Shown here in pieces: positions 4,796-34,461 of a stretch of 34,461 nt of DNA. Source of the stretch: Clostridia bacterium (GTDB lineage: Bacteria > Bacillota > Clostridia > Christensenellales > Aristaeellaceae); the NCBI GenBank assembly GCA_017433405.1, contig JAFRHH010000091.1, positions 1-34,461 on the forward strand. Reading direction: 5' to 3'. Under the pieces are notes generated by a model that made no database searches, was not told the origin of the DNA, and was given only the letters and a program-made list of their open reading frames with translations. Position numbers and translations under genes: made by a program. Every line of letters begins with the position of its first letter. Position 1 is the stretch's first letter.

Positions 4796-6415
4796 TTACT
4801 GGGCCGCCAGGTAACGATTATACACCGTCTGATAGATATCCAGCAAGGTGCTCATGCCGCAGCGCTCCAGATAGGCCTTGTAGGCTTCCCACTCCTCGTC
4901 GGTGGGGCCGCCGTTCTTGATCCAGTTCGCCTCATACTCGGCGACGGCCTTCTCGAAGTCCGGACGGTAGTAGTCGATGTCGTCCAGCTCGGACTTGGTG
5001 AACACGCAGTCCTGCGGATAGAAGGACGGATCCTTGACGAACTGCATCCAGTAGTCATAGATATCCGCCAGGCGCTGCTGGGCGCGGTCTTCCATGTAGA
5101 AGTACTCGTTGTAGTACTCGGACAGGATCAGCTTCGGACCCTGAACCTCCAGCTGGGCCTTCAGCTCGCCGGCGGACTTGTTGTACTTCGCGCGGGCTTC
5201 CTCATCGGTGATGGAGAGCCACATGCCCTTTTCATCCTGTCCGGTGAAGAACTCGCCGATGGGGCCGTACTGCAGCTGCATCACGTTCTCACCTTCGTAC
5301 CACTGATCATAGAAGCTCAGCAGCTTCGCCGGATCCTTGCACTGAGCGGTAATGGACAGGGAGCCCGCGTTGGTGGCGCCGCCGGTCCGCAGGTTCACGT
5401 TGCTGGTGCCATCGGGACCGTTCAGGATGGGCAGATAGACATAGTCCTCCGCGTGGGCGCCCATGATTTCGTTGATTTCCCACCAGGTGCTGACGCCGAC
5501 CCGGCCGCCGGAGCACTTGGCGATCAGCTGGTTGGTATCCTGGGAGAACATTTCCATGTCCATCAGGCCTTCGGCGTACCAGTTGTGGAAATAGGTCAGG
5601 GCCGCGCGATAGTTGTCGTCGTCGCTGACGAAGTTCACGGTGCCGTTCTGATCCACCACCAGGTCCATGCAGACGTCGTTGATCCAGTTGGTGAAGCCGA
5701 AGCCGGCATAGAACACGTTCTGGCCCCAGCACCACTCGTCGAAGCCGGTGCTCATGGGGATGGTGCTGCCCGCTTCGTTGCCGTAGATCTTCGCGGACAT
5801 GTCGTTTTCCTTGAAGGCGACCAGCACGTCGTGCAGCTCGTCCAGGGTCGTGGGCATGGCCAGGCCCAGGTCATCCAGCCACTTCTTGTTGATCATGGAG
5901 AACTGGGGCACGGAGAAGATGGAATAGTCCTTTTCCCGGCCGATACCGGCGGTGCCCATCTGCTCGCCGGCGGGGAGGCCGTAGATTTTGCCGTCGTCCA
6001 TGGTGATGGCGGCCTTCACGGCGGGATGGGTCTCCAGGATCTTCGCCAGGTTGGGCATGATTTCGGGGGTGATATAGGGGGTCAGGTCGATAAAAGTGCC
6101 GGAGGAGCCGTAGCGCATCAGGTCATAGTTGGAAAAGCCGCAGGCCTGGAAGGCGTCGATGGGATCCTTGGAGGCGGCGTTGCCGCTGATCCGGGTGCCG
6201 ACGACCTCGCCGAGGCTGTCGGACCAGGTGTCCCACTTGATAGTGATGCCGGCTTTTTCCTGCATCGCCTTGAGGACCACGTTGTTGTCATAGCCGCCGG
6301 ACAGGGCGGAGATGCCGCTGAGAACGTTGAAGGACGTCTGGCCTTCCGCGGTGGCGAAAGAAGCCATGCTCAGCACCAGCGCCAGCGCCAGAATCATGGA
6401 TACGAGCTTTTTCAT
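4796..6415 (-). CDS. Sugar ABC transporter substrate-binding protein (LplA-type)
   Basis: A 539-residue extracellular solute-binding protein of the family that partners LplB/LplC-type permeases. The N-terminus is a signal peptide (lysines followed by a hydrophobic stretch ending ASFATAEG). There is no cysteine for lipid attachment, unusual for a Gram-positive binding protein. Aromatic-rich segments such as STWWEINEIMG and FDEWCWGQNVFYAGF fit carbohydrate binding. The ATG at 6415 has AGGAGG about 7 bases upstream. Next to GH32, fructokinase and LacI genes it most likely binds sucrose or fructo-oligosaccharides. The specificity is inferred from context only. It is the last gene of the importer operon (permease, permease, binding protein), followed by a strong hairpin. 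Confidence 0.92.
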   Translation of the reverse strand: MKKLVSMILALALVLSMASFATAEGQTSFNVLSGISALSGGYDNNVVLKAMQEKAGITIKWDTWSDSLGEVVGTRISGNAASKDPIDAFQACGFSNYDLMRYGSSGTFIDLTPYITPEIMPNLAKILETHPAVKAAITMDDGKIYGLPAGEQMGTAGIGREKDYSIFSVPQFSMINKKWLDDLGLAMPTTLDELHDVLVAFKENDMSAKIYGNEAGSTIPMSTGFDEWCWGQNVFYAGFGFTNWINDVCMDLVVDQNGTVNFVSDDDNYRAALTYFHNWYAEGLMDMEMFSQDTNQLIAKCSGGRVGVSTWWEINEIMGAHAEDYVYLPILNGPDGTSNVNLRTGGATNAGSLSITAQCKDPAKLLSFYDQWYEGENVMQLQYGPIGEFFTGQDEKGMWLSITDEEARAKYNKSAGELKAQLEVQGPKLILSEYYNEYFYMEDRAQQRLADIYDYWMQFVKDPSFYPQDCVFTKSELDDIDYYRPDFEKAVAEYEANWIKNGGPTDEEWEAYKAYLERCGMSTLLDIYQTVYNRYLAAQ

Positions 6416-7418: not shown

Positions 7419-8348
7419 TTACACGAAGCTGACTTCGCCGTACTTTTTCGCGATCCGGTTCACGATCAGCAGCAGCACGATGTTGATGGCGGTATTGAAC
7501 AGGCCCACCGCGGTACCCAGCTCATACTTCGCGCTGACGATGCCCTGCTCGTAGACGTAGATCGCGATGATGTCGCTGGTGGCGCGGTTCAGATCCGTCT
7601 GCAGCAGATAGGCCTTTTCGAAGCCGACGTTCATGATACCGGAGGCGCTCATGATCAGCTGCAGGATGATCATCGGCAGCAGGCAGGGAATATCGATGTG
7701 CAGGATCCGCTGGAACACGCTGGCGCCGTCGACCTTGGCCGCCTCGTAGAGGGCGGGATCCACGCTGGAGAGGGTCGCCAGATAGATGATGGTTCCCCAC
7801 CCTGCTTCCTGCCAGATGCCGCTGGCCACATAGATGGTCCGGAAGGCGCCCGCCTCCGTCAGGAAGTCGATATTTGTGCCGGCGATCAGGTTGATCAGGC
7901 CGCCCGTCGGGCTCAGGAAGATCCGCAGCATACCGCAGATAACCATCGTCGAGATGAAGTGGGGGGCGTAGATCACCGTCTGCACCGTGCGCTTGAGCTT
8001 CTGGAAGCGCAGCTGGTTCAGCGCCAGGCTCAGCAGGATCGGCACCGGGAAGCCCCACAGCAGGCTGAACAGGCTCAGCTTGATGGTGTTCCACAGCATC
8101 CGGTCGAAGGTGGGGGCCCGGAAGAAGCGCTCGAACCACTTCCATCCGACCCATTCGCTGCCCGCCACGCCCAGGGCCGGATTATAGTTCCGGAAGGCGA
8201 TCTGGATGCCGTACATGGGGCCGTACTTGTAGATGATGGTGATGACCACCGGGATCAGCAGCAGCACATAGAGCTGCCAGCAGTCCCGCAACCGCTTTCC
8301 CAGATTCTTTTTATGAACCCGGGGAAGTGACGCCGCTCTCGTCGTCAT
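7419..8348 (-). CDS. Carbohydrate ABC transporter permease (LplB/MalF type)
   Basis: A 309-residue membrane permease with six predicted segments and the EAA-type loop EAAKVDGASVFQRILHIDIP. It pairs with the permease at 6490 to form the channel. I take the ATG at 8348 because AGGAGG lies 7 bases before it; the ATG two codons earlier would be only one or two bases from that site. It is the first gene of the importer operon. Its promoter (about 8426-8455) has a TGAAACGTTTCA operator just downstream, so LacI-type control is expected. Confidence 0.92.
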   Translation of the reverse strand: MTTRAASLPRVHKKNLGKRLRDCWQLYVLLLIPVVITIIYKYGPMYGIQIAFRNYNPALGVAGSEWVGWKWFERFFRAPTFDRMLWNTIKLSLFSLLWGFPVPILLSLALNQLRFQKLKRTVQTVIYAPHFISTMVICGMLRIFLSPTGGLINLIAGTNIDFLTEAGAFRTIYVASGIWQEAGWGTIIYLATLSSVDPALYEAAKVDGASVFQRILHIDIPCLLPMIILQLIMSASGIMNVGFEKAYLLQTDLNRATSDIIAIYVYEQGIVSAKYELGTAVGLFNTAINIVLLLIVNRIAKKYGEVSFV

Positions 8349-8399
8349 GTGCATTCCTCCTCATGTCCTGGAGTCCTATTGTCGTTTCATCCTCCGTGA

Positions 8400-8411
8400 T
8401 GAAACGTTTCA
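8400..8411. promoter_or_regulatory. LacI-type operator of the importer operon
   Basis: TGAAACGTTTCA is a perfect 12-bp palindrome with a central CG, typical of LacI-family operators. It lies about 8-19 bases downstream of the predicted importer transcription start. Half sites TTTCAT and ATGAAA recur on both sides (8385-8390, 8415-8420). It is the likely target of the divergent LacI protein. Confidence 0.75.
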
Positions 8412-8425
8412 CGTATTTCATGCGA

Positions 8426-8455
8426 ACATTACCATAGATCGGAGAAATCTGTCAA
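8426..8455 (-). promoter_or_regulatory. Predicted importer promoter
   Basis: On the minus strand TTGACA (8450-8455) and TAATGT (8426-8431) are separated by 18 bases. The -35 is perfect and the -10 is weak, as expected for an activatable or derepressed sugar promoter. Confidence 0.5.
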
Positions 8456-8525
8456 GGGGTTTTGTCATTTTTTTGTTCTATTTTTGACATTTAATCTATT
8501 TGTAATCCTTTATTTTTCAATAGTT

Positions 8526-8542
8526 TAGCCTATAATAGGCTA
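8526..8542. repeat. 17-bp palindrome in the divergent promoter region
   Basis: TAGCCTATAATAGGCTA is an inverted repeat with 8-bp arms and one central base, lying between the two divergent promoters. It differs from the TGAAA-type operators, so it may bind a second regulator. The core TATAAT also resembles a -10 box. Confidence 0.5.
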
Positions 8543-8565
8543 TTGAACCTTTTTCCGCGTATCTC

Positions 8566-8605
8566 TTGACAATTTTTCATGAAACAGCTATAATATTTCA
8601 TGAAA
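8566..8605 (+). promoter_or_regulatory. Promoter and twin operators of the LacI gene
   Basis: TTGACA (8566-8571), a 17-base spacer and TATAAT (8589-8594) form a perfect consensus promoter. TTTCATGAAA palindromes occur in the spacer (8575-8584) and directly after the -10 (8596-8605), with centres 21 bp apart. A repressor bound there would block polymerase, so autorepression by the LacI protein is likely. Confidence 0.8.
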
Positions 8606-8629
8606 CAAGCGGAAAGGAGGGGATTCCCC

Positions 8630-9673
8630 CTGGCCAGAGAATCGAGCAGTCCCACCATGGCGGATGTCGCCCGGGAGGCCGGTGTCGCCCTTGGGACAGT
8701 TTCCCGCGTGGTGAACGGGCAGCCCGTGGGCAAGGAATACCGGAAAAAGGTCGAGGATGCCATCGCCCGCCTGGGGTACCGGTATAATTCCAGCGGCCGC
8801 GCCCTGCGGACGGACCGGACGAATTCCGTCGCTCTGATCATTCCCAATACGATCAATCCCTATTTCGCCTCCCTGGTGCATCATATCAACATCGAGCTGG
8901 AGAAGCGGGGCCGGCGAGGGCTTCTATGGCTGACTGAATATAATCAGAAGCGGGAGAACGAGGTCATCTCCATGGCGCTGCAGAACCGGGTCGACGGGAT
9001 TATCGCCCTCACCTATAACCCGGATCTGGTCATTCCTGACAGCATTCCCTTCGTGACCATCGACAGGTTCTTCTCCGTCTCCGTGCCCTGCGTCGCCTCG
9101 GACAACTTCGGCGGCGGCTGGCTGGCAGCGAACCGGCTGGCGGAGCTGGGGTGCAAAAAGCTTGCCTTCATGCGGATCGGGTCCACGCTGACCAACGAGC
9201 CCAGCAAGCGGAAGGAGGGCTTCGTCAGCGCCTGCGTGAAGCTGGGGCTTCCCTTTGAGATCATGACGCTGGAGGACGGGGCCCCGATGAGGGAGTTCGA
9301 GGATTTCCTTTCCGCCCACCAGCACGGGGGCCGGCTGGATTTCGACGGGCTGTTCTTCGGGACGGATTCCCTGGCCTGGCGGATGATTCAGGTGCTCCGG
9401 CGCATGGGCGTCCGGGTGCCGGAGGATGTTCAGGTCATCGGCTTCGACGGGATCCGCATGTTCGGGGATCAGTCGCTGATCGTCTCGACCATCGTCCAGC
9501 CGGTGCAGGAGATCGCCGAGGCCTGCGTCAGCACCCTGCTGTCGCGTCATCTCTCCGGCGTGCCCTCCCTGATCTGCCTGCCGGTGCATTATGAATACGG
9601 CGGAACCACCCTGGACCGGCCGGACGAAGGCAGCCCGGACCGGGAAGGCGACCCTTCCGACTCCGCCTGCTGA
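8630..9673 (+). CDS. LacI-family repressor of the fructoside locus
   Basis: A LacI/GalR regulator of about 347 residues. The N-terminal helix-turn-helix reads MADVAREAGVALGTVSRVVN, followed by the YNSSGRALRT hinge and a periplasmic-binding-protein-like sugar domain (SVALIIPNT through DGIRMFGD). The start is uncertain. The ATG at 8600 lies at the predicted transcription start, so it could only serve a leaderless mRNA. AGGAGG at 8615-8620 is placed to serve the CTG at 8630, which I chose, giving MARESSSPTMADVA. The ATG at 8657 is a third option but has no ribosome site. It is divergent from the importer and precedes the fructokinase. TGAAA-type palindromes next to both promoters are the probable operators, with a fructoside or fructose phosphate as the likely inducer. 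Confidence 0.9.
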   Translation: MARESSSPTMADVAREAGVALGTVSRVVNGQPVGKEYRKKVEDAIARLGYRYNSSGRALRTDRTNSVALIIPNTINPYFASLVHHINIELEKRGRRGLLWLTEYNQKRENEVISMALQNRVDGIIALTYNPDLVIPDSIPFVTIDRFFSVSVPCVASDNFGGGWLAANRLAELGCKKLAFMRIGSTLTNEPSKRKEGFVSACVKLGLPFEIMTLEDGAPMREFEDFLSAHQHGGRLDFDGLFFGTDSLAWRMIQVLRRMGVRVPEDVQVIGFDGIRMFGDQSLIVSTIVQPVQEIAEACVSTLLSRHLSGVPSLICLPVHYEYGGTTLDRPDEGSPDREGDPSDSAC

Positions 9674-30323: not shown

Positions 30324-31136
30324 TCAGTACCAGCGACGCTCCGCCCCGACCGTCGTCGGCTCCGAATGGCCGGAATACAGAATCGTTTCCGGCGGCAGCG
30401 TCAGAATCCGCTCCCGGATGCTGCGCACAAGCTGCGCGCCATTCCCGCCGGGAAACCGGTCGTTTCCCCGGCCCCCCTGGGCGAAGATCGTATCCCCGGT
30501 AAAGGCCAGCCCCGCCGCCCGGTCATAGAAGATCACCGAATCCGGCGTATGGCCGGGGGTGTGAATCACCTCCAGGGCGCAGGCCTTTTCCGCCTTCCGG
30601 TGATCAGCGTTCCGCTCCCGCAGATGTCCCGCTTCCGCGCCGTCCCCTCGGCCATCGATGTCCGTGTGCGGCTTCCCGGTCCCCAATCCGCCCGGGGTCA
30701 GGCAGTCCCCGTCCCGGAAGGTTTTCGCGCCCTTCAGCCCTGTTTCGCCCAGGGTCAGGAAGTCCCCGTCCCGGAAGGTTTTCGCGCCTCTCAGCCGGAT
30801 CACCGGCGGAAAATAAGCGGAAAGATTCAGCGCCGGGTCGGCGAGATAGGCCTCCCCGGCCTCATGGATCCGGACGGGAACCTCCGCTTCCGCCAGGATG
30901 CCGCCAATCCCGCCGATATGGTCAAAATGCCCGTGGGTCAGCAGAATTCCCGCCAGGGTCCATCCCTGCTTCCTGATCTCATCCAGGAGCTCCTTCCCCC
31001 GCTCCCCGGGATCGATCAGAAAGCCGCGTCCCGTCTCCCCGTCGCCCCAAAAATAGCAGTTCACGCCCTGAACCGCGAGGGGAAAGCACCGGACGATCCG
31101 CTTCGTCCCCACTTCCCGGCTTTGATCCTTTTCCAT
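30324..31136 (-). CDS. Metallo-beta-lactamase-fold hydrolase (glyoxalase II-like) with internal duplication
   Basis: About 270 residues. Zinc ligands are in place: THGHFDHIGG (HxHxDH), HTPGHTPDSV, FTGDTIF and YSGHSEPT. This is the YcbL/glyoxalase II-like group of cytoplasmic thioester hydrolases; the natural substrate is uncertain. The ATG at 31136 follows GAGG by about 7 bases, and the upstream codons to 31223 look non-coding. Between the first and second zinc motifs it carries an in-frame tandem duplication (GAKTFRDGD...LTLG, then GAKTFRDGD...LTPG) and a further hydrophilic stretch ending KAEKACALEV. That adds roughly 50 residues to a loop that normally runs directly from DGD to LEVIHTPGH. 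The fold probably tolerates it because the insertion lies between strands. Confidence 0.9.
   Translation of the reverse strand: MEKDQSREVGTKRIVRCFPLAVQGVNCYFWGDGETGRGFLIDPGERGKELLDEIRKQGWTLAGILLTHGHFDHIGGIGGILAEAEVPVRIHEAGEAYLADPALNLSAYFPPVIRLRGAKTFRDGDFLTLGETGLKGAKTFRDGDCLTPGGLGTGKPHTDIDGRGDGAEAGHLRERNADHRKAEKACALEVIHTPGHTPDSVIFYDRAAGLAFTGDTIFAQGGRGNDRFPGGNGAQLVRSIRERILTLPPETILYSGHSEPTTVGAERRWY
30694..30807. repeat. 57-bp in-frame tandem duplication inside the MBL gene
   Basis: Two copies with a 57-base period (19 codons); the segment GTCCCCGTCCCGGAAGG at 30705 and 30762 is identical, and differences are few. The near identity suggests a recent event or gene conversion. Confidence 0.8.
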
Positions 31137-31349
31137 GCCGCCGCCTCTTTTCTCTTCTGGAACCATCCGTTCCCGTCGGTCTTTCCGGTCCCTGTTTCCC
31201 GCTATGCGGAGATTGTAGCGCAAGGCTTCCGGCCTGTCAATCAGGCGAAGGCAGGGGGAAGACAGGGGGACGCTTTTGTCTGCGGCTGGCCACGCCGCCG
31301 GTCTGTTTTCCAGGGGGGCGAATCGTTCCGTCTTGTCAACCGCGGTTCA

Positions 31350-31378
31350 TTGACTTTCAAAAGTGGAATCGCTACAAT
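31350..31378 (+). promoter_or_regulatory. Predicted promoter reading toward the RiPP operon
   Basis: TTGACT (31350-31355), 17 bases, TACAAT (31373-31378). The start would be near 31385, giving a leader of about 316 bases that includes the whole tandem array. A TATAAA close to the maturase start (about 31649) has no matching -35. Confidence 0.6.
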
Positions 31379-31387
31379 GAACTGGCG

Positions 31388-31493
31388 AAGACACGGGCGG
31401 CAAGACACGGGGACGTATCTTTGGCAAGACACGGGGACGGCAAGACACGGGGACGGCAAGACACGGGGACGAAGACACGGGGACGTATCTTTT
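31388..31493 (+). repeat. Six-copy AAGACACGGG(GACG) tandem array
   Basis: AAGACACGG starts at 31388, 31402, 31426, 31442, 31458 and 31472, with spacings 14, 24, 16, 16 and 14. Two units carry an extra TATCTTT. It lies directly downstream of the predicted promoter, so it would be transcribed. Confidence 0.8.
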
Positions 31494-31700
31494 GTCCGCG
31501 GCCGCTTCCGCTGCCAGTCTGTTGTCCGGTGGCAGATTGTTCCGCTTTTCCGATGCGGTTTATTGGCTTTCTGGCTTTCAGAAGCGGAGCCATTTCCAAG
31601 AGCTGAAAATTTTTTCCCAACCGCTGCCGCCGGTGTACCCGGCCTCGTATAAATCATAGGAGACCGATCTGGAAGAATCCGGGAAAGGAGGCTGAGGTCC

Positions 31701-33044
31701 ATGGGAAGAACAGCAGGGGAAACCGGGTGGCGGGTATCCCGATATAATCTGATGGCCAGGCTTCCGGGAACGGACAGGGTCGCCGTGGCGAACCTTCTGA
31801 GAGGCACGTGCGCCGCCTATACCCCGATCGAAATGTATCTGCTGGACGAGCTGGAAAGCCTGGATGAGAATCATCCGATCCTGGAGCGTTTCCGGCAGCG
31901 GGGCCTGATCGTCAATTTCGACGAGCAGGCTGCGTTCTCCGCCATGGCCCGGATGGCCTGCAGCGGGAACAGCAATGTCTCGCTGACCATCTGCCCCACC
32001 ATGGGGTGTAACTTCGACTGCCCCTATTGCTTTGAAAACCATCGGGCCGGCAGAATGAGTCCGGAAACCCAGGACGATGTGGTGGCCCTGGCCGGGCGGA
32101 TGCTCCAGTCCTCCGGCGCGAAGAAGCTGGATGTGACCTGGTTCGGCGGAGAGCCGTTGCTGATGCCGGACATCATCGAGGCGCTTTCCGGGCGGCTGAT
32201 GGCGCTGGCGGAGGAGCATGGCGCCCGGTACAGTGCCACGATTGTGACCAACGGCTACCTGCTCACCCAGGAGATCGCCGACATGCTGGGACGGTGCATG
32301 GTTTCGCACGCCCAGATCACGCTGGACGGCATCGGGCCGGAGCACGATAAAACCCGGCATCTGGCGGGTGGCGGCCCGACCTACGACCGGATTACGGAAA
32401 ACCTGCGTACCCTGCGCCTGCCCTTCAGTGTCAGCATCCGGCATAATGTATACGAAGGCAATCAGGATCAGCTGGATCCTCTGCGGGACAGGGTAAAGGA
32501 GCTCGCGGAGGAAAGCGGAAACCGTCTCTGGTATTACGCCTCCCCGGTCACGGACAATACCGCCGCCCGGGAGCGGAATTCCGGAGCCAATCTGAAGTGC
32601 GCCAACGGCCTTGGCGAAGTGGATCTGAGCCAGGGCGTGTATGATTTTCACGCCGCGAGGGGGCTCTTCTGCGCTGCGCACCGCCTCTATGACGTCGGAA
32701 TCGACGATCAGGGCCGGCTGTATAAATGCTGGGAGAGCGTCGATAAGCCGGAGCAAAGCTTCGGCCACGCCCACCGGTGGGATCCGATGAATCCCATCCT
32801 CACGGCAGATACGCCGGATCTGCTGACCCAGTTTCTGAACACTGCGGCGCCGATGGATGATCCGGAATGCAGGGATTGCGTGTTCCTTCCCCAATGCGCC
32901 GGGGGGTGCCCGATCCAGAGGCTCTATTATTCGAAGGCCTGCATTGCGGTCAGGAACATGCCGGAGAGATTTGTCCTGGGGCTGTACGAACGGCTCCGGA
33001 ACGAAAATAAACAAAAAGAAGAACAGAAGGGAGAATCACAATGA
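31701..33044 (+). CDS. Radical SAM/SPASM peptide maturase
   Basis: 447 residues. The N-terminal part (VSRYNLMARLPG through NFDEQ) resembles the leader-binding region of SPASM maturases. The radical SAM barrel has GCNFDCPYCF (Cys103, Cys107, Cys110; CX3CX2C) and FGGEP (149-152). The SPASM domain is complete: CX13GX4C (Cys324, Cys343), then CX2CX5CX3C (Cys390, 393, 399, 403) and a final Cys414, enough for two auxiliary iron-sulfur clusters. Such enzymes install thioether, carbon-carbon or similar cross-links in ribosomal peptides. The ATG has AAAGGAGG about 9 bases upstream. Its stop overlaps the precursor gene by four bases (ATGA), so translation is coupled. It most likely modifies the repeat core encoded next door; the chemistry cannot be told from sequence. 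Confidence 0.93.
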   Translation: MGRTAGETGWRVSRYNLMARLPGTDRVAVANLLRGTCAAYTPIEMYLLDELESLDENHPILERFRQRGLIVNFDEQAAFSAMARMACSGNSNVSLTICPTMGCNFDCPYCFENHRAGRMSPETQDDVVALAGRMLQSSGAKKLDVTWFGGEPLLMPDIIEALSGRLMALAEEHGARYSATIVTNGYLLTQEIADMLGRCMVSHAQITLDGIGPEHDKTRHLAGGGPTYDRITENLRTLRLPFSVSIRHNVYEGNQDQLDPLRDRVKELAEESGNRLWYYASPVTDNTAARERNSGANLKCANGLGEVDLSQGVYDFHAARGLFCAAHRLYDVGIDDQGRLYKCWESVDKPEQSFGHAHRWDPMNPILTADTPDLLTQFLNTAAPMDDPECRDCVFLPQCAGGCPIQRLYYSKACIAVRNMPERFVLGLYERLRNENKQKEEQKGESQ

Positions 33045-33382
33045 ATCACGAAGAATTCTACAGCAGCCTGAGTGATGACATGAAGGCCAAAATCAAGGCC
33101 TGCACGAGCCAGGACGAGATGATGGACGCGCTGAAGGCCGCCAACATTGAGCTGGATGCCGCGCTGCTCGAGGATGTCAGCGGCGGAAAGCTCTGCCCCT
33201 TCCACGGAACCCCCAAATGCGTATGCGATATTAAGATCGCCCAGGAGAATCTTCGCGCTGCGGGCAGTCAGGCAGGATGCAGGCTGAAATGCCCTCCGCA
33301 TCTGCGCGATGACTCCAACTCCTGCCCTCCGTATCTACGCGATGGCTCCAACTCCTGCCCTCCGTATCTTCGGCAGGGCTGA
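33041..33382 (+). CDS. Nif11-like RiPP precursor with three CPP(Y/H)LR core repeats
   Basis: 113 residues. Residues 1-49 look like a Nif11-type leader (EEFYSSLSDDMKAKIKAC, then MMDALKAANIELDAALLED) ending in a double-glycine motif, VSGG. The predicted core (50-113) is cysteine-rich (Cys52, 60, 62, 80, 84, 95, 106). It ends with CPPHLRDDSNS, CPPYLRDGSNS and CPPYLRQG, so Cys84, Cys95 and Cys106 are exactly 11 residues apart. It overlaps the maturase gene by four bases, with AAGGGAG upstream, and a strong terminator follows. The gene order (maturase first, precursor second) is less common than the reverse. No transporter or peptidase adjoins. Repeat cores usually mean that one modification is repeated on each unit. 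That this is a RiPP precursor is inferred from leader, core and context together. Confidence 0.85.
   Translation: MNHEEFYSSLSDDMKAKIKACTSQDEMMDALKAANIELDAALLEDVSGGKLCPFHGTPKCVCDIKIAQENLRAAGSQAGCRLKCPPHLRDDSNSCPPYLRDGSNSCPPYLRQG
33290..33379 (+). repeat. 33-bp tandem coding repeats of the RiPP core
   Basis: Units at 33290-33322, 33323-33355 and a partial 33356-33379. Across units, Leu codons are CTG/CTA/CTT and Arg codons CGC/CGC/CGG, while the CPPxLR peptide is kept. Confidence 0.85.
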
Positions 33383-33402
33383 TTGATCCGCCTGACGGCA
33401 GG

Positions 33403-33441
33403 ACTGCCGGGAAATTTCTCTCCCGGCAGTTTTCTTTTTCT
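33403..33441 (+). terminator. Intrinsic terminator of the RiPP operon
   Basis: ACTGCCGGGA and TCCCGGCAGT make a perfect 10-bp stem with an 8-base loop, followed by TTTTCTTTTTCTT. It begins 20 bases after the precursor stop codon. Confidence 0.92.
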
Positions 33442-33460
33442 TACCCCTTTTCCGCGCCCG

Positions 33461-33528
33461 GACACGGGGACGCTTCTTTTGTCCGGCCCGAAGCCCCAAC
33501 AGCCGCAGGGGCGAAGAGAGGCTTCGGC
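33461..33528. repeat. REP-like remnant between the RiPP terminator and SRAP gene
   Basis: GGACACGGGGACGCTTCTTTTGTCCG recalls the start of the segments at 31259 and 31472 (given here in two parts: GGACACGGGGACG and TCTTTTGTCCG). GGCCCGAAGCC and GGCTTCGGCC then form an imperfect hairpin. Confidence 0.45.
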
Positions 33529-33535
33529 CATCCGG

Positions 33536-34138
33536 TTACCCGATCTCCGGAACCACCCGGGTCAGGGCCAGCTCAAGCAGCTCCTCCGGCCGGCGCTCCG
33601 GGCGAATCCATTCCCGCGCCGCCTCCTCCGGAAGGATCAGCGGCATCCGGTCATGGATCGGCCGCACCGACTCCCCCGGCTCCCGGGTCAGAATCACGAA
33701 GCAGGGCAGTCCACCCTCCAGCCGGTACAGGCCGCAGAGCCAGATCAGCTCCCCCTCCGGACGCCGGAAGCGATATCGGCTTCCGGTTTTTCGCTTTCCG
33801 TCCGGCAGTTCCGTATGTTCCCATTCGAAATAGCCGGAGGCCGGCAGCGCGCAGCGGTGCCCCGCCCAGGCCTCCCGGAACAGGGGCTTCTCCCCCGCGG
33901 TCTCCGTCCGGGCGTTAATCAGCAGGCTTTTTCCCCGAAACCCCCATCGCATGGGGAACACGGCGCGCCGACCGGCCCGGCCTGTCGCCAGGGCCGGCGC
34001 CACCTGGGAAGGGCGCACCTCTCCCGGGAAGGGCGCCGCGGCGCCTTCCCCGAAAGCCTGGAGCAGCGGCGACCGGTTCATTTCTTCCACAAAAGGCCGC
34101 AGCAGCGGCGAATCATCCGTATAATATCTGCAGCACAT
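33536..34138 (-). CDS. SRAP-family protein (YedK/HMCES-like)
   Basis: 200 residues starting MCCRYYTDD, where Cys2 is the residue that SRAP proteins link covalently to abasic sites in single-stranded DNA. The other active-site motifs are present: INARTET (Asn), ASGYFEWE (Glu) and PIHDRMPLIL (His). Its role is protecting abasic sites during replication, and it is often SOS-linked. I start at the ATG at 34138 (AAAGGAG about 10 bases upstream) because Cys2 must follow the cleaved methionine; the open frame continues upstream only through a minisatellite. The LexA-like repressor 4 kb away may or may not control it. Confidence 0.93.
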   Translation of the reverse strand: MCCRYYTDDSPLLRPFVEEMNRSPLLQAFGEGAAAPFPGEVRPSQVAPALATGRAGRRAVFPMRWGFRGKSLLINARTETAGEKPLFREAWAGHRCALPASGYFEWEHTELPDGKRKTGSRYRFRRPEGELIWLCGLYRLEGGLPCFVILTREPGESVRPIHDRMPLILPEEAAREWIRPERRPEELLELALTRVVPEIG

Positions 34139-34250
34139 CCGATGCCTGTCTCCTTTCCCGTACGGTTCAGGCGGTACCCTTGTCAGGAATTGTATCACAT
34201 CGGATTCCTCCGCCGCAACGCACGCGGCCGTCCTTTTTCCGGTTTCGTCC
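34139..34250. other. Upstream region of the SRAP gene
   Basis: About 110 bases with the SRAP ribosome site near 34148. I see no convincing promoter or palindrome before the minisatellite begins. Confidence 0.3.
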
Positions 34251-34320
34251 GGATTTGCCCGGTCTTGCCCGTTTTTGCCCGGTCTTGCCCGTTTTTGCCC
34301 GTTTTTGCCCGGTCTTACCC
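34251..34320. repeat. Seven-unit 10-bp minisatellite
   Basis: Seven 10-base units in register, of two types (GGTCTTGCCC and GTTTTTGCCC, with edge variants GGATTTGCCC and GGTCTTACCC). It lies upstream of the SRAP gene and could vary in number by slippage. Confidence 0.9.
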
Positions 34321-34461
34321 TAAAATACTCCCCGTAGAATGGACACATGAATTTAACACGGACCCGGTTTGTGGACATTCAAAATAGCCTAAATCCCATA
34401 ATGTGGATGTTGGAAAAAACTCAAATCCCGGAATGTGGACAAGACTATTAATCCCAGAACC
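34321..34461. other. AT-rich edge with ATCCC..AATGTGGA direct repeats
   Basis: Composition drops abruptly here. AAATCCCATAATGTGGA (34391) and AAATCCCGGAATGTGGA (34423) are direct repeats 32 bases apart. A further AATCCCAGAA is at about 34450, and GTGGACATT lies near 34371. Repeated terminal motifs like this occur at the ends of some insertion sequences, so a mobile element may begin just beyond the window. No gene is visible. Confidence 0.4.

Follow-up and report, generated by a model that had tools for sequence, protein, structure and literature searches.

Peptides with a Nif11-type leader that are served by one radical S-adenosylmethionine (SAM) maturase and a common exporter type, and whose precursor gene does not always adjoin that of the maturase, are described in the relevant sections of Haft 2011 (PMC3023750). 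Repetitive cores are known from other radical SAM systems: the passages of PMC9062424 on such peptides treat TvgA/TvgB, with TVGG repeats, and peptides with Tyr/His-Asn-Arg repeats, and cite the RRR system, in which Tyr and Arg are cross-linked. A survey of strains cultured from the rumen, published in 2026 (PMC13289728), applied a TIGR03973 rule for ranthipeptides and reports none in Actinomycetota. Here, a stretch of 34,461 nucleotides from a Clostridia bacterium (contig JAFRHH010000091.1; "the window") was analyzed. Judged from its sequence, the locus at 31701..33382 is most likely a two-gene unit for a ribosomally synthesized and post-translationally modified peptide (RiPP), consisting of maturase and precursor, in the genome of a gut bacterium. 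The pairing of a Nif11-type leader with a single radical SAM enzyme is already known, and the window system appears to follow the grammar of Haft 2011, with an enzyme outside TIGR04064; new are the apparently unnamed maturase family, its C-x2-D-C core signature, precursors scattered over genomes, and a near-identical maturase pair beside different cores.

The window system resembles the TIGR04064 systems, as outlined in PMC3023750, in the leader class of its relatives, in a radical SAM/SPASM enzyme as sole maturase at the locus, in the NHLP/Nif11-type exporter, and in that the precursor is not always found beside the maturase. The window maturase, however, scores 74.6 bits with the TIGR04064 model (cut-off 518.7) and belongs to another branch of the superfamily. 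With the TIGR04463 and CefB maturases it shares Cys-containing substrates, judged by those family names. PapB, in the parts of PMC9413430 devoted to it, is a radical SAM/SPASM enzyme which, as the window enzyme presumably does, acts on a Cys-rich core with several sites and tolerates changes in core sequence, but the window enzyme scores 109 with the PapB model (cut-off 340), and the cores of its family favor C-x2-D-C and avoid C-x3-D. As in TvgA/TvgB and the Tyr/His-Asn-Arg peptides, to the extent that PMC9062424 details them, one short motif is repeated within the precursor, suggesting repeated modification; the Y/H-x-R alternation is shared with the latter peptides. Motifs and gene sets differ from those of both systems, the comparison being one of description, not of maturase kinship.

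Results

A maturase outside the named families

The sequence-only reading had claimed a complete radical SAM/SPASM gene with an overlapping small open reading frame (ORF) at this position and a full set of cluster-binding cysteines; both claims held. The maturase contains the radical SAM motif C103-x3-C107-x2-C110 and the full SPASM pattern (C324-x13-G-x4-C343, C390-x2-C393-x5-C399-x3-C403, and C414), that is, both the CX3CX2C motif and the SPASM Cys spacing by which radical SAM/SPASM peptide maturases are classed, and it scores 44.5 bits with the SPASM domain model TIGR04085 (cut-off 27). Among the 25 of 76 NCBIfam matches listed, which include neither XyeB nor FxsB, no maturase-family cut-off was reached. 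The highest-scoring named models among them, TIGR04463 (rSAM_vs_C_rich), Clo7bot, and CefB, cover most of the length of the enzyme with 212.7, 167.4, and 152.8 bits (cut-offs 525, 600, and 600); the listed models of cyclophane maturases scored lower still (YhhB 56.3 vs 445, AmcB 48.3 vs 425, and GrrM 42.3 vs 310). The best E-values of 84 family members were of the same order as those of the window enzyme (e.g., 9.2e-68 with TIGR04463), which implies, as far as E-values can tell, that they too reach no NCBIfam maturase cut-off. Matches to PHROGs were mostly to general radical SAM families and were set aside. In searches of the open-licence literature, whose terms did not include CPPYLR, no description of this family was recognized, and no paper was found there for TIGR04463 or Clo7bot by name.

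In the predicted structure, built from 84 sequences, the radical SAM domain spans residues 98-239 and the SPASM cysteines residues 324-414; the model replaced one from 9 sequences with a poor SPASM part (predicted local distance difference test score 74.7). Three strands and three helices are predicted at about residues 16-88, an arrangement which we take to be similar to a RiPP recognition element (RRE). The best full-length structural match was with Protein Data Bank entries 5wgg and 5why, the SCIFF thioether maturase CteB. The window enzyme and CteB share 18% identity, and a SCIFF maturase distinct from the window enzyme is encoded elsewhere in the window genome (727.7 bits vs a cut-off of 425; L029 on contig C55, 5203-6630, minus strand). 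Beside that gene lies a small Cys-rich ORF (L002, 2302-2493, minus strand).

Relatives of the maturase and their leader-type neighbors

When named genomes were scanned, the best 80 of 446 relatives were kept, giving 79 loci with 47-74% identity to the window maturase. By record title, 53 are from Actinomycetota, 21 from Bacillota, 4 from Chloroflexota, and one is other; 64 titles name a ruminant animal or carry an RUG or RGIG label (RUG presumably stands for rumen genomes). Isolates with relatives include Lachnospiraceae JC7, Oribacterium C9, and Olsenella intestinalis. At genus level, 6 of 45 genomes contained the maturase at E≤1e-60, and a family sample of 300 yielded nine genes, in seven genomes, with at least 50% identity, the window's included in both counts. 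In a quick tree, the window grouped with L078 (genome G293) and L079 (SH-aLRT 97 and 99, the only type of support calculated). The tree and its alignment (A3) leave out two divergent maturase-like ORFs, second copies in L108 (7384-8709) and L113; at L113 (3670-4989, plus strand; 7678-8991, minus strand), as at L108, this second gene beside the first is without the usual SPASM spacing. Viral contigs yielded no relative with the single protein as query, and 36 loci with an 84-member profile (best L186, 5001-6275, 43% identity); no leader matched in the five of these that were scanned or in the fetched L186 stretch. Neither plasmids (10 records) nor phages (1 record) contained a relative above 34% identity. 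The sequences point to a large, mostly ruminant-gut maturase family which is apparently unnamed.

The pairing with leader-type ORFs that had been predicted for such relatives was found. A first leader model, from eight precursors, matched ORFs in 45 of the 79 loci, and after iteration 73 ORFs in 46 loci. More than half (38 of 73, in 36 loci) lie within 600 nucleotides of the maturase, where 9.8 would be expected by area; 28 of these share the strand of the maturase, and 32 (31 loci) carry at least two Cys behind the GG. Some matches are probably not substrates, for example, those with long cores containing zinc-ribbon-like Cys pairs. At L101 (5705-5959), beside a 60% identical maturase, a leader-like ORF has an in-frame stop within the leader and is broken or misread.

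Codon-level conservation of the small ORF in relatives, which the sequence-only reading had required, was evident for the leader. In L079 (70% maturase identity), the genes follow one another as in the window, with the same start overlap and GGAGAATCAC-n-ATG junction, and there are two precursors in which 28 and 30 of 49 leader residues are identical to the window's, the cores being unrelated. Nonsynonymous divergence of the leader (dN 0.25-0.27) is well below synonymous divergence (dS 0.79-1.61; dN/dS about 0.17 and 0.31); the leader is under purifying selection.

The leader had also been called Nif11-like, which applies to the relatives. All 12 members of leader alignment A2 besides the window match TIGR03798 at E≤1; of ten precursors scanned singly, only one reaches the TIGR03798 cut-off. 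With Pfam Nif11, six of ten precursors other than the window's (the LanM-linked L073 among them, for comparison) pass the gathering score. Since the window leader itself has no such match, and the two L079 leaders match neither Pfam Nif11 nor TIGR03798, their class is assigned provisionally, through relatives such as G293 (E 2.8e-8).

Core composition and the probable cross-link

For core comparison, identical ORFs were counted once, so that some loci are missed, and 9 of 107 sequences without a recognizable GG were dropped, which left 98 cores. Most (77) contain at least two Cys, and Cys makes up 10.5% of core residues versus 1.3% of leader residues. Motifs were counted in cores of 5-70 residues with at least two Cys, thinned from 75 to 63 non-redundant sequences, and compared with shuffles, whose significance is overstated because related cores share descent. 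C-x2-D (32 vs about 15 expected) and C-x2-D-C (14 vs 1.9) were in excess, neither count being equaled in 1,000 shuffles, as was C-P (28 vs 11.7), while C-x3-D was depleted (8 vs 14.2). The family thus does not follow the PapB ranthipeptide motif, and the window core, which lacks C-x3-D, is unlike the freyrasin type, as had been proposed. The Asp-Cys pair, only weakly enriched (24 vs 17), was rejected as a signature.

That Cys is common to most cores, and that both the closest named models and the best fold match over the full length belong to maturases of Cys-containing peptides, favors thioethers. Among other uses of these cysteines, binding of metal or formation of disulfides, with the radical SAM enzyme making another change such as epimerization, is improbable; it would fit the 27 C-x2-C pairs (20.5 expected) and the five CP-x-C motifs (1.1 expected) in the 63 cores. 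Pairs of these types also occur in metal sites.

The motif C-x(1,2)-P-aromatic-x-R, present three times in the window core and as a single C-terminal tail in five Coriobacteriia precursors, suggests another chemistry, namely, carbon-carbon or similar links between Tyr/His and Arg in each unit (YLR, YLR, HLR), Cys being free, in disulfides, or secondary. The motif occurred 6 times in the 63 cores (0.1 expected), and 3 times (0.08 expected) when the window was left out; moreover, aromatic-x-Arg is kept in each window unit while His and Tyr interchange, and a radical SAM precursor with repeated Tyr-Asn-Arg/His-Asn-Arg is known from the corresponding passages of PMC9062424. Yet aromatic-x-Arg as such is not enriched (6 vs 6.4, window left out), the motif is missing from most family cores, and cyclophane-maturase models score lower than those for Cys-peptide enzymes. 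The five Coriobacteriia cores belong to one maturase clade (support 91) and therefore count as one case, not five. Such links are unlikely to be the main modification, but in the repeat units they are a real rival to thioethers; the sequence-only reading had named both, one per unit, as candidates.

The triple repeat

The precursor ORF (33041-33382) encodes 113 residues: 49 of a GG-type leader with VSGG at its end, and 64 of a core that includes seven Cys. At its C-terminus the core reads CPPHLRDDSNS-CPPYLRDGSNS-CPPYLRQG; the units, proposed to be 11 residues apart, are exactly 33 nucleotides apart (Table 1). Its run of nine identical residues at offset 11 was not reached in any of 5,000 shuffles, in which the longest chance run was 6. 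Silent codon differences had been offered as an argument for selection on the peptide. The differences exist, at two of six codons of the CPPxLR blocks (CTG/CTA/CTT in the three units, and CGC/CGC/CGG, with one unit different), but the argument drawn from them is thin: the blocks also contain one replacement (CAT/TAT, His/Tyr), and the spacer a D/G replacement. Nor was the expectation borne out that the number of units would vary among relatives with CPPYLR kept. No relative examined has the CPP(H/Y)LR repeat, and among the 98 cores a tandem repeat of this kind is present in the window's alone, which makes it, as far as examined, a peculiarity of the window genome and not what defines the family.

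The RiPP unit may be real while the triple repeat arose by recent neutral duplication, with the N-terminal core (CPFHGTPKCVCDIK...) alone corresponding to the family product. Few sites differ between the units, the core is long (64 residues vs a median of 20 for the 98 cores), and in the sister genome G293 the core of the precursor is short, contains no repeat, and ends in KCKPKYF. The adjoining MBL-fold hydrolase gene (30324-31223, minus strand) contains its own tandem duplication (30689-30796) of 57 nucleotides, a multiple of three; with such a duplication in a neighboring unrelated enzyme gene, the repeat by itself says little about function. On the other hand, every unit retains CPP and LR, with silent changes, reading frame and stop are intact, and related C-P-aromatic-x-R tails occur elsewhere. 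A neutral origin is a real possibility, albeit a rather unlikely one.

Scattered precursors and core exchange

Genome G279 contains three maturases and 18 matches to the leader profile on many contigs, and G112 one maturase and nine matches (in both, some are partial, weak, or stop-crossing). No relative of the window maturase was found by tblastn (1e-3) in eight fetched stretches around scattered precursors. The maturases of these genomes thus probably modify more than one precursor in trans; among other enzyme types, LanM alone was searched for, and neither genome has a DUF4135 (LanM) match at E≤0.001.

Between Lachnospiraceae JC7 (L148) and Oribacterium C9 (L151), DNA identity is 99.3% for the maturase and 94% for the leader, but 62% for the core. 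The 61 nucleotides between core and maturase are 100% identical, and the precursors are at 5706-5918 in both. This single pair shows the pattern that a leader-guided, core-tolerant enzyme would allow. In contrast to such variability, a closely similar core is found in six Coriobacteriia loci (L083, L088, L091, L094, L102, and L104). These cores, from Eggerthellaceae, Olsenella, and Atopobiaceae, end in CKVCRGYKGCK(V/C)Y or CSVCTGYRGCKVY.

Export genes and lanthipeptide enzymes

With no exporter at the locus, processing by enzymes encoded elsewhere had been suggested, which agrees with the genome. A search for C39 peptidases gave no match on the window contig (C71) and two in the window genome, on contigs C67 and C86. 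On C67, a small ORF with a hydrophobic stretch (no NCBIfam assignment) is followed by a TIGR03796 protein above the cut-off and a TIGR03797 protein 3 bits below it; by these matches, it looks like a Nif11/NHLP export set, apparently complete. An exporter of the NHLP/Nif11 type is thus in the genome, unlinked to the window. A C39-exporter-like stretch with at least 44% identity (some partial; identities refer to the first of tied queries) is present in at least 15 of the 79 related loci, so that the absence of a local exporter is ordinary.

The only DUF4135 matches of the window genome, two genes, are on C86. With them, the precursor could be the substrate of a LanM, which would join Ser of the SNS spacers and Cys into lanthionines, the adjacent radical SAM enzyme being secondary; the window core has six Ser/Thr. 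This is highly improbable. No DUF4135 match lies on the window contig, as would be usual for a class II lanthipeptide, whose LanM is encoded beside the precursor; here, it is the maturase gene that overlaps the precursor gene. In addition, G279 and G112, with multiple precursors of the window's leader type, are without a DUF4135 match, 17 of 77 cores contain neither Ser nor Thr, and the ORF beside the LanM of G293 (L073) scores E 0.0009 only with the leader model.

Layout of the locus

Table 1. Features of the maturase-precursor locus (window coordinates).
Feature	Position	Strand	Remarks
Sigma-70-like promoter candidate	31350..31378	+	TTGACT-17-TACAAT; 10/12 consensus positions; consensus match only
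Radical SAM/SPASM peptide maturase	31701..33044	+	447 residues
Precursor leader	33041..33187	+	49 residues, VSGG at end; 4-nucleotide overlap with maturase stop
N-terminal core part	33188..33289	+	KLCPFHGTPKCVCDIKIAQENLRAAGSQAGCRLK; 4 Cys, unrepeated
Repeat unit 1	33290..33322	+	CPPHLRDDSNS
Repeat unit 2	33323..33355	+	CPPYLRDGSNS
Repeat unit 3	33356..33382	+	CPPYLRQG and stop
Intrinsic-terminator-like hairpin with T-rich tail	33400..33440	+	3′ of both genes

The start codon of the precursor lies within the last maturase codons (ATGA overlap) and is preceded by AGAAGGGAG, a good ribosome-binding sequence. Promoter-like sites in the region number 3 on both strands (0.7 expected by shuffles). 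The hairpin behind the precursor (33400-33433) has the longest stem (13 pairs; fold z-score -3.1) of four terminator-like sites (2.1 expected). Given the promoter-like site and the terminator-like hairpin, both consensus matches, the two genes appear to be transcribed together. An Rfam scan of 31100-34461 gave nothing at gathering score.

Between the promoter-like site and the maturase (31423-31485), GGCAAGACACGGGGAC units stand head-to-tail, and a further GGACACGGGGACG lies behind the precursor at about 33460-33472; we take these to resemble dispersed elements of the repetitive extragenic palindromic type. At 34239-34320, 10-nucleotide CCGGTTTTGC-like units are arrayed in the 5′ part of the frame of an SRAP-domain gene (33536-34378, minus strand).

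Discussion

Gene pair, complete cluster-binding Cys sets, leader conservation, maturase family, and exporter genes are all seen in the sequence; the explanation that probably accounts for them is a two-gene RiPP unit with a leader-guided maturase, a core cross-linked by Cys thioethers, and cleavage and export by a set of the C67 type. The Nif11-like leader would be bound by the built-in RRE-like N-terminal domain of the maturase, as its model suggests. The SAM-bound cluster and two auxiliary clusters would then cross-link the Cys-containing core and, to judge by the relatives, would tolerate very different cores. Most likely, the links are thioethers, formed in each of the three CPP(H/Y)LR units as well as in the unrepeated core part. 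The exporter encoded on C67, with its C39 protease, would cleave behind VSGG and export the product. As no cleavage motif is apparent between the units, the product is most likely a single long peptide carrying three similar rings. Its likely role, we infer, is that of a bacteriocin or a signal among gut bacteria.

Several observations weigh against this explanation. The window core contains neither the C-x3-D/E of PapB-type ranthipeptides, of which C-x3-D is depleted in the family, nor the family's own signature C-x2-D-C, and it is the only one of 98 with such a tandem repeat, next to a gene that was itself internally duplicated. The window leader alone matches no Nif11 model. No leader match lies within 600 nucleotides of the maturase in 43 of the 79 loci, and none in the locus at all in 33 (many contigs are short); genome G236 holds a maturase, and two leader scans found no precursor match there, with one weaker match in the locus after iteration. 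The DynA model, at 67 bits, scores higher than those of the cyclophane makers and close to that of SCIFF (70), DynA being a cross-linking maturase that does not form thioethers. Finally, the unlinked exporter on C67 could serve other peptides, and contig C86 carries LanM genes together with a C39 exporter.

A wider proposal is tentative, with the chances somewhat against it: in a radical SAM version of the prochlorosin strategy, a single leader-guided cross-linking maturase would serve a large number of scattered precursors, with cores swapped like cassettes, in at least three ruminant-gut phyla; in the window's branch, the core would evolve by tandem repetition of CPP(H/Y)LR, with a ring chemistry unseen before.

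More than the single repeat, it is the whole family that deserves interest. It offers natural leader-core pairs beside hypervariable cores, ready for testing, and the three near-identical units of the window precursor, with their small natural changes, are a convenient substrate for identifying the joined residues and for learning if the enzyme acts unit by unit. Should the maturases prove as tolerant as the pair from Lachnospiraceae JC7 and Oribacterium C9 suggests, they would lend themselves to the production of cyclic peptides.
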